Notes under the pieces: model-generated
What the model was told of the DNA's origin: nothing
The model's database searches: none
What the model saw: the letters and a program-made list of their open reading frames with translations, nothing else
Origin: a virus
Direction: 5' to 3' (one strand)
IMG/VR virus record: IMGVR_UViG_3300027741_000110
Coordinates: 1 to 45,850 of that record
DNA: 45,850 nt
Shown here: positions 1,391-41,403 of the stretch, one piece after another
Layout of the letters: every line of letters starts with the position of its first letter
How positions within the stretch are numbered: position 1 is the first letter of the stretch
Made by a program: the position numbers and the translations under genes

Positions 1391-1900
1391 TTATGACATT
1401 GACAAAGCTGTTGCGTTTACTTCTTTGACCCTGCGTTCCCATCCCTTGCCAAATGTTTGCCATGTTTGGAGCATTTTGAGATAGGCTAAACGGTATGCAC
1501 AATAAGCATCGATAAGTTCTTTTGCGTCTTTATTTCGTACAGCTTGTATTGTCTTGTCGCCAATAACGCCATCTGCGTACACGTTAACGCACGCTTGAAG
1601 CCACTTTGCGGCCCTGCCTGGGCCTGAGTTAATCGCCGCATCAAACACCGCATAATCCACGCCGTTTGGCAAGTCATCGCCTTTGGTCTTGTCCCAGTAC
1701 TTGCGCCGGTACAGTGGCTCAACATCAGCAGGAGTGAGGGCTTTCATTGTTTTGGTATCTACCATGTGACCACAATGTTCTTCCCAAACTGCTTTTGTGC
1801 AGCCAAGGTTTGTTTCCCCGCCAGGATCCATTGGATTAAAAACGTAACCACCTTCGTGGACAAGCACAGCAGCAAAGGCTTTGGGGAAATTTTCTTTCAT
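1391..1900 (-). CDS. GH108 endolysin (N-acetylmuramidase), copy A
   Basis: A 169-aa muramidase of glycoside hydrolase family 108, expected to cleave the glycan of peptidoglycan at lysis. The N-terminus carries the family signature LVHEGGYV with the catalytic glutamate at residue 16. It is followed by DPGGETNLGCTKAVW, a central YWD segment near residue 69, and a C-terminal half like the peptidoglycan-binding domain usually paired with GH108 (INSGPGRAAKWLQ, then GDKTIQAV). No signal peptide is visible, so export depends on the holin. The ATG overlaps the holin stop by four bases. The homologue at 39395-39904 has the same length and catalytic residue. Confidence 0.92.
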   Translation of the reverse strand: MKENFPKAFAAVLVHEGGYVFNPMDPGGETNLGCTKAVWEEHCGHMVDTKTMKALTPADVEPLYRRKYWDKTKGDDLPNGVDYAVFDAAINSGPGRAAKWLQACVNVYADGVIGDKTIQAVRNKDAKELIDAYCAYRLAYLKMLQTWQTFGKGWERRVKEVNATALSMS

Positions 1901-2304
1901 GTTCGCGCAACACCGTTGAGCTTTTCAATTGTTCGCAGGCCACCAATACCAAGCATACCCATCAACACGGGCGTCATTTCAGACAGATCGGCAGGGGCCA
2001 AATTTAAAGGGTGTTCAAAATACGCAGCCGCGAATAAGGCAATCTTTAACCCAATCCAGTTCCACGCGCAGGCAGCGCCGCAAACCCAGCCGATAAAAGG
2101 ACGCCAGCCGGACACAAACACGCTGGCGCTTGCCGCCTCAACTTTGTTAATTTCCAACTGACCAGCCATAGCAGCCAATTCACCAGATTGCTGGAGTTTG
2201 ACAAGTTCCAACTTAGCCGTTGCGGCTTGAACGGGGTCGGGCCAAACACGGTCAATGACTTTGCCGCCAATGTCTAACAGTGCTGATACAGGGTCTAGTG
2301 ACAT
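1897..2304 (-). CDS. Holin, 3-TM family, copy A
   Basis: A 135-aa inner-membrane protein of the 'holin of 3 TMs' family associated with phage and gene-transfer-agent release. An amphipathic N-terminal third (DIGGKVIDRVWPDP, then a Q/E/L-rich helix) is followed by hydrophobic segments around residues 65-90 and 105-120. I chose the ATG at 2304 because a GAAAG ribosome site sits seven bases upstream and because it gives almost the same length as the second holin (136 aa). An in-frame ATG at 2331 would add nine residues but lies inside the conserved pseudoknot RNA and lacks a ribosome site. It is coupled to the endolysin by a 4-base overlap. Confidence 0.85.
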   Translation of the reverse strand: MSLDPVSALLDIGGKVIDRVWPDPVQAATAKLELVKLQQSGELAAMAGQLEINKVEAASASVFVSGWRPFIGWVCGAACAWNWIGLKIALFAAAYFEHPLNLAPADLSEMTPVLMGMLGIGGLRTIEKLNGVART

Positions 2305-2322: not shown

Positions 2323-2386
2323 GGCAGACATTAACCCGTAGGATGGTCTGCCAGCACCCCCTTTTCACGCTGGAGCGTTCGGGTTA
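2323..2386 (-). ncRNA. Candidate structured RNA (H-type pseudoknot plus hairpin), copy A
   Basis: Read on the minus strand: strand A TAACCCG (2386-2380), a small hairpin ACGC-TCCA-GCGT (2378-2367), a GAAAA linker, GGGGGTGCT, strand B GGCAGAC (2352-2346), CATCCTA, strand A' CGGGTTA (2338-2332), AT, strand B' GTCTGCC (2329-2323). A/A' and B/B' are each 7 perfect pairs and interleave, giving a pseudoknot. The copy at 40632-40696 keeps the fold with compensatory changes at one A/A' pair and three hairpin pairs. TAA at the start of strand A is the stop codon of the 73-aa gene. Function is unknown: mRNA leader control of the holin, coupling between genes, or antitermination are all possible. Confidence 0.7.
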
Positions 2387-37977: not shown

Positions 37978-38950
37978 TAACTTTAATCACACGGCCTCGG
38001 AATTCAATGGAATCGGGGCTGTGTGTCGTCACCAACTCAGGCAACAACAGTTTGCCATCCACAAACGTAAGAACGGCAAAGCCCGACCGCCAGTTGAGTG
38101 GACCGTGCTCGGTATAGTCTTCAAACTGTGGTCCGTAGGGCTCTGCAAGCGTACCAGTATCAATACCGTAGCGCACCCCGTTGTAGTCAGAAAATGGCGT
38201 GACTTTTAAGCTGTGCAAGTGGCCTGTAACGATGTTCTTGCCTGACCACATGGTGTTATTGTGGGTAGCGTGGATTCCACCTTTGAAGCGGTGTTTGACA
38301 ACAGTGTTGTCGTTTAGCCATACAGCCCAGCACGGCTCCCAATCTGGGAAGTGGTCACGTAGGGTAAACCCTTTTACATGTTCATACTGCGGGGCGTTGG
38401 CAGCTAAGAACGTCTCAAATCGCGCGTCGTGATTGCCCAAAGGCCAGATCAGCTTGACGTTGTGACGGGCTTCTTTGGCGGCTTCTTCAATGTACCCCAT
38501 GCAAATCGTACAAGCCTTGAGTTCTTCCATTACAGAAGGAGACTTTGCCCAGCCAATGCGTGGGTGGCGAGAGATACCCGCCCCATCAAAAATATCGCCG
38601 TTGGCAATAACTGCGTTGGGCTTGAGTTCTTTGATAGCCCACAAGAGGCCGTAGAATGCTGTGGAGTAGATGCCGGGCCAGAAGTGAGCATCACTGAACA
38701 CAATCACAGTGCCGTTTAATATGCCAAGATCTTTTTTGGCGGGGTGAACGTGGGCCGTTTGAAGATGTGTGTATTGTTGGGTGGCTTGCGGCGCTGTGAT
38801 TTTTATTTTTTCTTTTTGCTCAATACGCCTACGGCGTCTGTTTAGCCCTGACAAATCCATCCCAAGGGTGATACTTGCTTGGCGAACTGAACTACTGTTT
38901 TCAATTGCGCTGATGATTTCTTGATCTGTATATTTTTGGACGGGCATCAT
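37967..38950 (-). CDS. Calcineurin-like metallophosphoesterase, copy B (complete)
   Basis: The complete 327-aa version. After an HTH-like N-terminus (TDQEIISAIENSSSVRQASI, then NRRRRRIE) come the metallophosphatase motifs in order: FSDAHFWPG, NGDIFDGAG, LGNHDARFE, HATHNN and TGHLHSLK. All expected metal ligands are present, so it is probably active. The last part (GIDTGTLAEPYGPQFEDYTE) is identical in copy A. The N-terminal domain differs most between copies, in the basic linker at residues 40-65. It is the last gene of the minus-strand block and overlaps the acetyltransferase by ATGA. Confidence 0.9.
   Translation of the reverse strand: MMPVQKYTDQEIISAIENSSSVRQASITLGMDLSGLNRRRRRIEQKEKIKITAPQATQQYTHLQTAHVHPAKKDLGILNGTVIVFSDAHFWPGIYSTAFYGLLWAIKELKPNAVIANGDIFDGAGISRHPRIGWAKSPSVMEELKACTICMGYIEEAAKEARHNVKLIWPLGNHDARFETFLAANAPQYEHVKGFTLRDHFPDWEPCWAVWLNDNTVVKHRFKGGIHATHNNTMWSGKNIVTGHLHSLKVTPFSDYNGVRYGIDTGTLAEPYGPQFEDYTEHGPLNWRSGFAVLTFVDGKLLLPELVTTHSPDSIEFRGRVIKVITQ
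38005..38131. repeat. 127-bp exact direct repeat, right copy
   Basis: Identical to 1-127. It lies entirely inside the metallophosphoesterase gene. Collinearity with the left block continues to about 1900/39904 without net indel, so every gene boundary there differs by exactly 38,004. Confidence 0.95.
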
Positions 38951-39363
38951 AATTTCCTACGCCAATACAGCGTGTTTTTGAAGCCCCAAGGCTTCGTCGG
39001 TTGGAACAACTTAAAACCTGTGGCAATTAAACTGTTTGCCGATGCCGGATTGTCGGTTGTATCAGTTACGACCCATCTCCACCCAAGAGCTTTTGCCTGT
39101 CGGAGGCGGACACGAATAAACTGTCTCTGTAATCCTTGTCCACGAGCAGCAGGAATAACACCTGCGCGACACAGATACCCGCAATCAATCCAACTAACGG
39201 TACGAACAAGGCCCGCAAAGCCAATATCCACACCATTCTCAGTAGCAATCCACCAAGAACCAAAATTTGTGTCAACTGGCTGGTCATAAGGTAAGCAAAT
39301 CTTTTGAAGTGCCGACAGCTTGTCCTGAATTGACTCTTTGCGAATGTCTACTCGTTTAAGCAT
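38947..39363 (-). CDS. GNAT-family N-acetyltransferase, copy B
   Basis: A 138-aa GNAT protein with motif A IPAARGQGLQRQFIRV. It aligns end to end with copy A. Substitutions are mostly conservative (for example AGVVPAA to AGVIPAA), so both appear under purifying selection. It has the same hairpin abutting the ATG and the same 4-base overlap with the metallophosphoesterase. Confidence 0.85.
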   Translation of the reverse strand: MLKRVDIRKESIQDKLSALQKICLPYDQPVDTNFGSWWIATENGVDIGFAGLVRTVSWIDCGYLCRAGVIPAARGQGLQRQFIRVRLRQAKALGWRWVVTDTTDNPASANSLIATGFKLFQPTKPWGFKNTLYWRRKL

Positions 39364-39382
39364 GAGCGTATTGAAAACGCTC
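39364..39382 (-). promoter_or_regulatory. Hairpin abutting the GNAT start codon, copy B
   Basis: Same 6-bp stem and 7-nt loop as at 1360-1378, inside a 46-nt stretch that is identical in the two copies, from the ATG back across the intergenic gap into the endolysin C-terminus. The endolysin codons just upstream differ at synonymous sites. Confidence 0.55.
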
Positions 39383-39394
39383 GGTGTGACGCCG

Positions 39395-39904
39395 TTATGA
39401 CATTGATAATGCAGTTGCGTTTACTTCTTTGACCCTGCGCTCCCATCCCTTGCCAAATGTTTGCCACGTTTGGAGCATTTTGAGATACGCTAAACGGTAC
39501 GCACAATAATCGTTGATAAGTTCTTTTGCGTCTTTATTTAGTACAGCTTGGATTGTCTTGTCGCCAATAATGCCATCTGCGTACACGTTTACACAAGCTT
39601 GCAACCACTTGGCGGCACGGCCCGGGCCTGAGTTAATCGCCGCATCAAACACCACGTAATCCACGCCTGCTGGCAGAGCATCGCCTTTGATCTTATCCCA
39701 GTACTTGTTCTTGTACAGCGGGCCAACATCAGCGGGGGTCAAGGCACGCATGGCTTTTTCGTCTACTGGGTGGCCGCAGTGTTCTTCCCAGACTGTCTTG
39801 GTACAGCCGAGGTTGGTCATGCCGCCCGGGTCTTTGGGATTATTAACGTAGCCGCCTTCGTGTACGAGGACAGCGGCAAGGGCTTTGGGGAAATTGGCGT
39901 TCAT
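39395..39904 (-). CDS. GH108 endolysin, copy B
   Basis: A 169-aa muramidase with LVHEGGYV (catalytic Glu at residue 16), DPGGMTNLGCTKTVW, YWDKIKGDALP and the INSGPGRAAKWLQ C-terminal domain. Same length and layout as copy A. Differences concentrate in residues 20-75, around the substrate-facing loops, while the C-terminal half is almost unchanged. It overlaps the holin stop by four bases. Confidence 0.92.
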   Translation of the reverse strand: MNANFPKALAAVLVHEGGYVNNPKDPGGMTNLGCTKTVWEEHCGHPVDEKAMRALTPADVGPLYKNKYWDKIKGDALPAGVDYVVFDAAINSGPGRAAKWLQACVNVYADGIIGDKTIQAVLNKDAKELINDYCAYRLAYLKMLQTWQTFGKGWERRVKEVNATALSMS

Positions 39905-40311
39905 TTTCTGCCCTTCATATCAGCCAGCTTTTCAAGCGTGCGACCGCCAAAGTAAGCGCCCATTACCAGCATGCCCCACTGCCCAAGCAAAGTAACGTAG
40001 GACTCAGCAATGTGAAAGCCTGTGCCGTCCATAATGGCCAAAGCAAGGTATGCGCTCAAGATGTAGACCAGCGTCAAAGGGCGCACGTTCTTGGACAGCC
40101 AAGAATCAGAAGCCATGTCGGCTTTCCAGCGATCCGAAGTGTTGGTCTGCTCAATCCCAACCAGCTTGGTTTCATTTGCCATCGCGGCAAGCTCCCCGTT
40201 TTGGGCCAGCACCGCCAGATCAAGTTGGGCCTTGGCTTTGGCTTCAGGATCGGGAATCAGTTTGTCGATAAGCTTGCCACCGATATTTAGTATTGCATCG
40301 AGTCCAAACAT
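39901..40311 (-). CDS. Holin, 3-TM family, copy B
   Basis: A 136-aa membrane protein like copy A at the N-terminus (ILNIGGKLIDKLIPDPEAKA, then LAVLAQNGELAAMANE), but clearly different in the membrane part (VRPLTLVYILSAYLALAIMDG and GQWGMLVMGAYFGGRTLEKL). The shared ends and changed core suggest exchange of the pore-forming part between lineages. It directly follows the spanin-like gene and is coupled to the endolysin. Confidence 0.85.
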   Translation of the reverse strand: MFGLDAILNIGGKLIDKLIPDPEAKAKAQLDLAVLAQNGELAAMANETKLVGIEQTNTSDRWKADMASDSWLSKNVRPLTLVYILSAYLALAIMDGTGFHIAESYVTLLGQWGMLVMGAYFGGRTLEKLADMKGRK

Positions 40312-40312
40312 A

Positions 40313-40612
40313 TCATCTGCCTTTCAGTCGTTCAAGAATAATGGCAATGTCTTGCCGATTGTTTGCAATGTCGTCGCGGTTTTTTTGGATTTCTTTTTCC
40401 AAATCTTGACGTAGTTTTTCACGTGCTAACTCAGCACCTGAGTTTGGTGATTGCCTATTGTCTGACGTAACAACAAGGCTAATTTTGCTGTTGAGTATTG
40501 TGACCTCATGGCCCAGATTGGACAAAGCCGACATTAAGTACACCACGCATGAAAACAGCAGTGGCAACAAAGCAAACGTGAGTTTTTCAATCAAAGCTCC
40601 TTTGTCGTCCAT
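40313..40612 (-). CDS. Spanin-like / membrane coiled-coil protein
   Basis: A 99-aa protein with an N-terminal TM (LIEKLTFALLPLLFSCVVYL) and a long charged coiled coil (LAREKLRQDLEKEIQKNRDD and after). This layout fits an inner-membrane spanin (Rz-like) or another lysis accessory. It has AAAGGAG before the ATG at 40612 and no equivalent in copy A, where the RNA is followed directly by the holin. Confidence 0.65.
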   Translation of the reverse strand: MDDKGALIEKLTFALLPLLFSCVVYLMSALSNLGHEVTILNSKISLVVTSDNRQSPNSGAELAREKLRQDLEKEIQKNRDDIANNRQDIAIILERLKGR

Positions 40613-40631: not shown

Positions 40632-40696
40632 GGCAGACATTAGCCCGTTAGGATGGTCTGCCAGCACCCCCTTTACCCCGGAGTCGGGTCGGGCTA
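40632..40696 (-). ncRNA. Candidate structured RNA (H-type pseudoknot plus hairpin), copy B
   Basis: On the minus strand: A TAGCCCG (40696-40690), hairpin CCCG-ACTC-CGGG (40688-40677), GTAAA, the invariant GGGGGTGCT, B GGCAGAC (40662-40656), CATCCTAA, A' CGGGCTA (40647-40641), AT, B' GTCTGCC (40638-40632). The strand A change (A to G) is matched in A' (T to C), and three of the four hairpin pairs differ by double changes from copy A. TAG at the start of A is the stop codon of the upstream 70-aa gene. One extra A lies before A'. Confidence 0.7.
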
Positions 40697-40906
40697 TATC
40701 CCTAAAATCTTTTTGACGAACTCTGCGGCTACACCGGGGCCAAGCAACACAGCCGCAATCACTACATACAAAAGGTACTCGATCTTGGTCATGCGCTTGG
40801 AGCCGTCATCAAAACGTCCCTGAATGCTTTCATACCGTTCGGCGCAAATTTGCTCATGAGTAGACAATCTTGCCTCCGTTTCGGTGATCATTTTTATATC
40901 GTGCAT
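40694..40906 (-). CDS. Small TM protein upstream of the lysis RNA (70 aa)
   Basis: A 70-aa protein with an N-terminal helix (ETEARLSTHEQICAERYESIQ) and a C-terminal TM (EYLLYVVIAAVLLGPGVAAEF), the reverse order of the 73-aa protein in copy A. Its TAG stop is part of the structured RNA. The start overlaps the end of the HNH/AP2 gene by 13 bases, so MITETEARL, five codons in, could also be the start. Confidence 0.6.
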   Translation of the reverse strand: MHDIKMITETEARLSTHEQICAERYESIQGRFDDGSKRMTKIEYLLYVVIAAVLLGPGVAAEFVKKILGI

Positions 40907-41403
40907 GATGTGTGCAATTTTCTTTTAGCAATCAAGTACGCTTGGTGACCTGTTTCGGGATCTTCAAAATACCCAAGGTGAATTTTTTTGCCATCAAGGT
41001 TTATATGGGCCGAAAACTTGTTTGCAGCCTTGTAATATGAAACCCCAAGAAACCCCGAAGTGTTGTGCCTCGGCGGTTTTCTGTGGTTGTGGATGTTTTG
41101 CTGTTGAGTCACTTCGCGCAAGTTGCATAGCCTGTTGTCAAGTCCGTTGCCATTGAGATGATCAATTGTTTTAGGAATGTAGCCATAAGTCAAAAACCAT
41201 GCAAATTGATGGCCTCTCATTCGCCTGCCACACACGCCTATTTGCAAATACCCAGCGTTGACAACACCAACTTTGTCACCAGCTTTTTTGTGGCCTGATG
41301 TTTTCAAGCGCGTAAAGGCCCCAGTCTCTGGATCGTAAGCGAGGTATTGGCTCACCAATTCCTTGGTGAACTCCTTGCCAATAAAAGAAACGGGGCCTTT
41401 CAT
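40894..41403 (-). CDS. HNH homing endonuclease with AP2 DNA-binding domain
   Basis: A 169-aa selfish endonuclease. The HNH part includes KTIDHLNGNGLDNRLCNLREV (D-H, N, N of the HNH_3 group). The C-terminus is an AP2 domain (SGFLGVSYYKAANKFSAHIN, then GKKIHLGYFEDPE). It nicks or cuts DNA at a target to copy itself between phages. It stands between the 53-aa and 70-aa genes of the second block and is absent from copy A. Confidence 0.9.
   Translation of the reverse strand: MKGPVSFIGKEFTKELVSQYLAYDPETGAFTRLKTSGHKKAGDKVGVVNAGYLQIGVCGRRMRGHQFAWFLTYGYIPKTIDHLNGNGLDNRLCNLREVTQQQNIHNHRKPPRHNTSGFLGVSYYKAANKFSAHINLDGKKIHLGYFEDPETGHQAYLIAKRKLHTSCTI

Follow-up and report, generated by a model that had tools for sequence, protein, structure and literature searches.

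The two RNA copies and the genes around them

The window (the whole stretch of DNA analysed, positions 1 to 45,850 of the IMG/VR virus record IMGVR_UViG_3300027741_000110) encodes a P22-like portal, and its nearest GenBank relatives are mostly aquatic podoviruses. The minus strand carries two copies of a structured RNA of approximately 65 nt, which lies between two co-directional genes. Copy A (64 nt) occupies positions 2323–2386 and copy B (65 nt) positions 40632–40696. Both span positions 1–65 of a covariance model of the relatives (cmsearch, full-length matches of 85.9 and 89.9 bits, respectively) and are assigned to the same RNA family, the window copies being themselves among the 40 training sequences of the model or identical to one of them.

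Copy A is preceded by a minus-strand gene for a 73-residue protein (2384–2605; PHROG 462, annotated as a lipoprotein), the stop codon of which lies within the first helix of the RNA, P1. It is followed by a holin gene (1897–2304, minus strand, start at 2304; GTA_holin_3TM/PHROG 3427). The gene upstream of copy B (40694–40906, minus strand) encodes 70 residues without a family match, and its UAG stop codon constitutes nucleotides 1–3 of P1. Downstream of copy B, on the same strand, lies a gene for a 99-residue protein (40313–40612) with a hydrophobic segment recognisable by eye. The first-pass annotation had termed this protein spanin-like, a label that finds no backing in Pfam or PHROG, neither of which gave a match. 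A holin is encoded in this cassette as well, one gene further on (39901–40311). A free-standing HNH endonuclease gene (40894–41403; PHROG 99) is located directly upstream of the 70-residue gene, and both lysis cassettes contain a gene for a GNAT-type acetyltransferase (943–1359 and 38947–39363) between the endolysin and phosphoesterase-like genes.

Positions 1–1904 and 38004–39907, at opposite ends of the linear contig, share 85.5% identity. The contig starts within the gene that ends the other lysis cassette, and the left cassette is cut by the contig end. The two cassettes may derive from two strains joined in assembly, i.e. a strain chimera; the finding of the RNA is independent of whether this is the case.

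A four-helix fold maintained by compensatory change

The RNA consists of four helices, namely a three-way junction of P1, P2 and P3 and a pseudoknot formed between the P3 loop and a strand downstream of P1. Copy A reads, in 5' to 3' order on the minus strand, the P1 5' strand UAACCCG (2380–2386), with the UAA stop codon of the upstream gene as nucleotides 1–3; the P2 hairpin ACGC-UCCA-GCGU (2367–2378); an A-rich junction; the P3 hairpin GGGUG-CU-GGCAGAC-CAUCC (2341–2359), the nine-base loop of which (CU-GGCAGAC) contains the 5' strand of the pseudoknot, GGCAGAC (2346–2352); the P1 3' strand CGGGUUA (2332–2338); and the 3' strand of the pseudoknot, GUCUGCC (2323–2329), with the next AUG 18 nt downstream. 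The corresponding parts of copy B are the P3 hairpin at 40651–40669, including the pseudoknot strand in its loop (40656–40662), the P1 3' strand CGGGCUA at 40641–40647, and the 3' strand of the pseudoknot at 40632–40638, where the next AUG follows after 19 nt.

The secondary structure proposed in the first-pass annotation was correct in part. The outer pairing, equivalent to P1, is present in both copies (TAACCCG/CGGGTTA in A, TAGCCCG/CGGGCTA in B), as is the invariant pseudoknot pairing GGCAGAC/GTCTGCC and the 4-bp hairpin (ACGC-TCCA-GCGT and CCCG-ACTC-CGGG, respectively). Likewise, the four compensatory double changes said to distinguish the copies were recovered, with no pair broken. However, the complete fold was not captured, as helix P3 had been missed: the stretch GGGGGTGCT, described as an invariant linker, is not single-stranded but ends in GGGUG, and these last five nucleotides before CU pair with CAUCC immediately after the pseudoknot strand. 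P3 probably extends to six pairs with a closing G-U.

The paired arrangement GGCAGAC-N10..40-GTCTGCC is found at just two places in the window, which are the RNA copies, against an expectation of 0.00 from shuffled sequence, and is therefore not attributable to chance. Single-sequence folding of the two copies, which disregards pseudoknots, was uninformative (z = -1.5 and -0.7).

Across 40 distinct sequences 96.3% of the cells are paired, and two-sided changes are found in 13 of the 23 pairs. All four helices covary, and the covariation score was reached by none of 500 shuffles of this set. When the partners were slid by one base as a control, pairing fell below 50%. In P3, two of five pairs show two-sided changes among relatives, with GGGUG/CAUCC replaced by CGGUG/CAUCG or by GGGCG/CGUCC. 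Parsimony on a tree of 45 matches gave approximately 30 compensatory events, as compared with a mean of 1.86 (maximum 11) for a null of random re-pairing, and 15 pair-breaking events, as compared with about 81; these counts are rough, since the tree was made from the short RNA itself. The same fold was obtained from a set of sequences retrieved by protein homology and not by any RNA pattern, a set that partly overlaps the pattern-derived one. Divergent members also retain the fold, with the closing pair of P3 changed, by eye, from G-U to C-G. Beyond the helices, an unpaired AAA and an unpaired CU are strongly conserved, a G-U in P3 is invariant, and the pseudoknot sequence is nearly so. In combination, these analyses show that a four-helix fold is maintained by compensatory change.

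Distribution and placement between genes

Searching IMG/VR with a 20-base core returned 30 stretches, to which relaxed patterns, a scan with the lysin protein and a scan with an early-operon MarR-like protein added further loci, giving approximately 50 distinct loci in IMG/VR contigs; the RNA thus recurs in many environmental phages, between gene pairs that are unrelated. Pattern searches of GenBank phage records and plasmids yielded only pieces at chance level, and the RNA is absent from three relatives in GenBank (DSL-LC05, Rhodoferax phage P26218 and a Manatee Spring podovirus). In bacterial genomes, the core-pattern scan gave just three matches, in which the fold was not visible by eye. 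Screening of the whole window against Rfam 15 returned no family at gathering score, the best hit below threshold reaching 14.2 bits where the cut-off was 81.3, and a search of open-licence PMC papers found no description of the RNA. It thus appears to be a previously uncatalogued family of an already known kind, the phage cis-acting intercistronic RNA, and adds an apparently undescribed but strongly supported structured RNA to phage biology.

Late-operon copies precede the gene for a holin or for one of the other small proteins of the lysis cassette. In related phages, many copies are instead located in the early operon, between a MarR-like winged-helix gene downstream and, upstream, a gene that encodes an SSB-like protein (PHROG 7364) or is otherwise small, and three genomes (L001, L012 and L105) carry one late and one early copy facing each other. 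The earlier suggestion that the fold was kept while the coding content around it was swapped is borne out across relatives, in the covariation of the fold as well as in the variety of gene contexts. The early-operon copies rule out a function confined to lysis, and to speak of a lysis timing device would be too narrow.

The position of the RNA relative to the flanking codons is constant. At 22 of the 50 distinct loci, the stop codon of the preceding gene, be it UAA, UAG or UGA, forms exactly nucleotides 1–3 of P1, and in nearly all remaining loci it lies no more than approximately 12 nt from the start of P1. Variants of the stop codon are matched in the 3' strand of P1; in the window UAA-CCCG is found with CGGGUUA and UAG-CCCG with CGGGCUA, such that the change from UAA to UAG is mirrored by that from GGGUUA to GGGCUA. 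The distance from the end of the fold to the next AUG is 16–21 nt in 38 of 46 loci, upstream of unrelated genes. Four or five early-operon loci depart from this spacing, with approximately 100 nt, including another structured RNA, between fold and AUG. The RNA accordingly displays a fixed stop-to-start placement of the type that defines a translational insulator or leader element. The strength of the Shine-Dalgarno site after the fold ranges from absent to strong, resembling that of other genes in the window, and neither this site nor the start codon is visibly sequestered by the fold.

The lysis gene pairs c8–c1 and c8–holin also occur without the RNA, in which case the genes overlap or nearly abut. 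Overlaps of the form AAATGA are found in L107 and L109 and of the form TAATG in L051 and L059, while gaps of at most approximately 10 nt are seen in L036 and L066, and likewise in L169; in L166, the gene overlapped by c8 is a short ORF. Just before c1 in L007, L008, L022 and L166 lies a conserved ORF of about 42 residues, which follows the RNA in three of these contigs and overlaps c8 in one. As the same gene pairs exist at tight junctions without it, the RNA is shown to be an optional insert of approximately 82 nt that takes the place of a closely spaced junction. Among relatives, either arrangement is found at this gene-pair junction, but the overlapping stop-start junctions (ATGA/TAATG) contain no RNA structure, and coupling requires the very short spacing that the RNA removes. 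In published reporter experiments with E. coli gene pairs, spacing the genes +38 nt apart nearly abolished reinitiation (PMC10666635), and the insert, at approximately 82 nt, is therefore expected to uncouple the pair. Uncoupling is thus supported as a consequence of the insert, whereas uncoupling as the function under selection is inferred. Phages evidently exchange two ways of arranging a gene junction, one being an overlap of stop and start codons and the other a knotted RNA; junctions that differ in the presence of the RNA but not in the genes constitute natural test pairs for its effects on the expression of holin and regulator.

Candidate functions and a second structured RNA

Among the functions listed in the first-pass annotation, which included a processing signal and a ligand-sensing leader, translational control fits best. 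Judged from sequence, we tentatively favour, at a little short of even probability, a cis-acting intercistronic element for the control of translation, which takes the place of termination-reinitiation coupling and sets ribosome start on the next gene. This preference derives from the fact that each end of the element is positioned by a codon, that the stop codon often lies within P1, and that the RNA is swapped with coupled junctions; with the upstream stop so often inside the fold, the RNA probably controls the reading of the next gene. The element begins at or a few nucleotides from the upstream stop and ends just short of the next gene's ribosome-binding region, and the insert would separate downstream translation from termination-reinitiation coupling. 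A ribosome terminating at the upstream stop would hold the 5' strand of P1 and P2 open, and the complete fold would consequently be possible only with the stop vacant. Once closed, the fold would border on the next initiation complex at its upstream edge and modulate initiation; it would probably either block 70S ribosomes in their scanning or else serve as a standby or operator site. The conserved unpaired AAA and CU, the invariant G-U and the near-invariant pseudoknot call for more than a mere roadblock. The downstream gene, whether a holin or other lysis gene of the late operon or a MarR-like regulator of the early operon, could thereby be expressed independently of its neighbour. Still, the fixed spacing could be a mere effect of compact phage genomes, the translation start site is not visibly hidden, and the loci with the long spacer fit poorly with translational control.

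A related proposal, which we regard as possible but on the unlikely side, is that the RNA represents a new class in DNA phages, one that senses occupancy of the upstream stop: a terminating ribosome would open the knot and a vacant stop would let it close, controlling translation or decay of the next gene. Were this true, and were exoribonucleases also halted, bacterial viruses would possess an xrRNA-like knot. Several other readings of the RNA were tried and rejected. Binding of the anti-Shine-Dalgarno sequence by the conserved AAAGGNGGUG (near AAGGAGGUG) was dropped because the fold persists in divergent members with AAAGUCGGGUG or AAAGUCGGGCG. A small ORF starting at the GUG of P3 (-35 starts) is, by eye, in frame with the downstream gene in a minority of loci, with no conserved frame. 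A tRNA-like end is not conserved (CCA follows the pseudoknot strand in 21 of 46 loci), and the helix order does not match that of an HDV-like or pistol ribozyme, nor was there an Rfam match.

The conserved unpaired bases, the G-U in P3 and the pseudoknot are also what would be expected of a recognition site, and the fold may bind a phage protein, such as SSB, or a small molecule, and so regulate late and early targets. By analogy this operator or riboswitch has precedents, in that T4 gp32 represses its own mRNA via a pseudoknot located ahead of the start codon (PMC3014915) and translation is among the processes that small pseudoknot riboswitches can control (PMC6698751). In the early operon, some copies come immediately after the SSB gene, and the two copies per genome in L001, L012 and L105 could form a regulon. 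Like the phage RNA, the T4 gene 32 operator is an mRNA pseudoknot ahead of a start codon that is conserved across phages; however, it is a simple pseudoknot that leads the SSB gene itself, whereas the phage RNA combines a three-way junction with a pseudoknot, comes after SSB in the early operon or occurs without a detected SSB homologue, and precedes many unrelated genes. In the window phage the RNA is present although homologues of that SSB and of the MarR-like gene were not detected, the downstream genes share no obvious pathway, and no alternative fold hiding the start site was seen. The glutamine-I and glutamine-II riboswitches (glnA, Downstream-peptide) are likewise small (approximately 60 nt), have a three-way junction or a pseudoknot, and lie upstream of ORFs in aquatic samples. 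The two have distinct architectures, a three-way junction without pseudoknot in glutamine-I and a pseudoknot in glutamine-II (PMC6698751), and the phage RNA differs from both in that no nitrogen genes were seen and Rfam gave no match to either family. An operator or riboswitch is unlikely. About equally unlikely, again by analogy, is an mRNA-decay element, in which the compact knot would halt an exoribonuclease and shield either the distal mRNA from 5'-3' decay, as flaviviral xrRNA does, or the 3' end of the upstream gene from 3'-5' decay. The helix order is that of class 1 flaviviral xrRNA, P1 enclosing P2 and P3 with the P3 loop pairing immediately 3' of P1, here in covariation-supported helices, and intercistronic placement suits segmental mRNA stability. 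Flaviviral xrRNA, for which an L3-S4 pseudoknot has been described, is reported to block diverse exoribonucleases (PMC5760640), and its PK2 comprises 2–7 bp (PMC8571300), a range that includes the 7 bp of the phage pseudoknot (PMC5760640, PMC8571300). However, there is no sequence match, and PK1, the ring and the conserved junction nucleotides could not be identified by eye in the alignments. The phage RNA moreover stems from a DNA phage and is intercistronic, not in a 3' UTR; ribosomes terminating within P1 would keep unfolding it, and decay control needs no exact abutment to a stop codon. The shared topology nevertheless raises the testable question of whether bacterial viruses use the same knot.

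Two readings do not involve translation or decay. A transcription element, i.e. a put- or nut-like antitermination or pausing signal through which RNA polymerase would read into distal operon genes, is compatible with the length and mid-operon position of the RNA, and in some genomes copies are found near the end of both convergent operons. It is nonetheless improbable, as a transcription signal has no need of a position locked to stop and start codons, and in L167 and L168 the cassette lies away from the operon end. Least probable is a conserved DNA linker mediating homologous recombination of gene cassettes: the RNA does sit at mosaic-gene junctions in multiple contexts, but the compensatory covariation contradicts such a role, two-sided helix changes, among them C-G/U-A/G-C swaps, which reduce DNA identity, being unexpected of such a linker.

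A second RNA is often present at the SSB/MarR-like junction in phages that lack the main one. Its pattern is GGGG-GAAA-stem-hairpin-AGUA-CCCC, in which a segment GACGA is conserved and an internal loop is loop-E-like; the RNA gave no Rfam match and is apparently uncatalogued. It was found upstream of the MarR-like gene in L172, L186, L188, L189, L202, L214, L218, L238 and others, and in tandem with the main RNA in L059, L105, L106, L164 and L169. In a set of 12 sequences, its middle helix shows compensatory changes.
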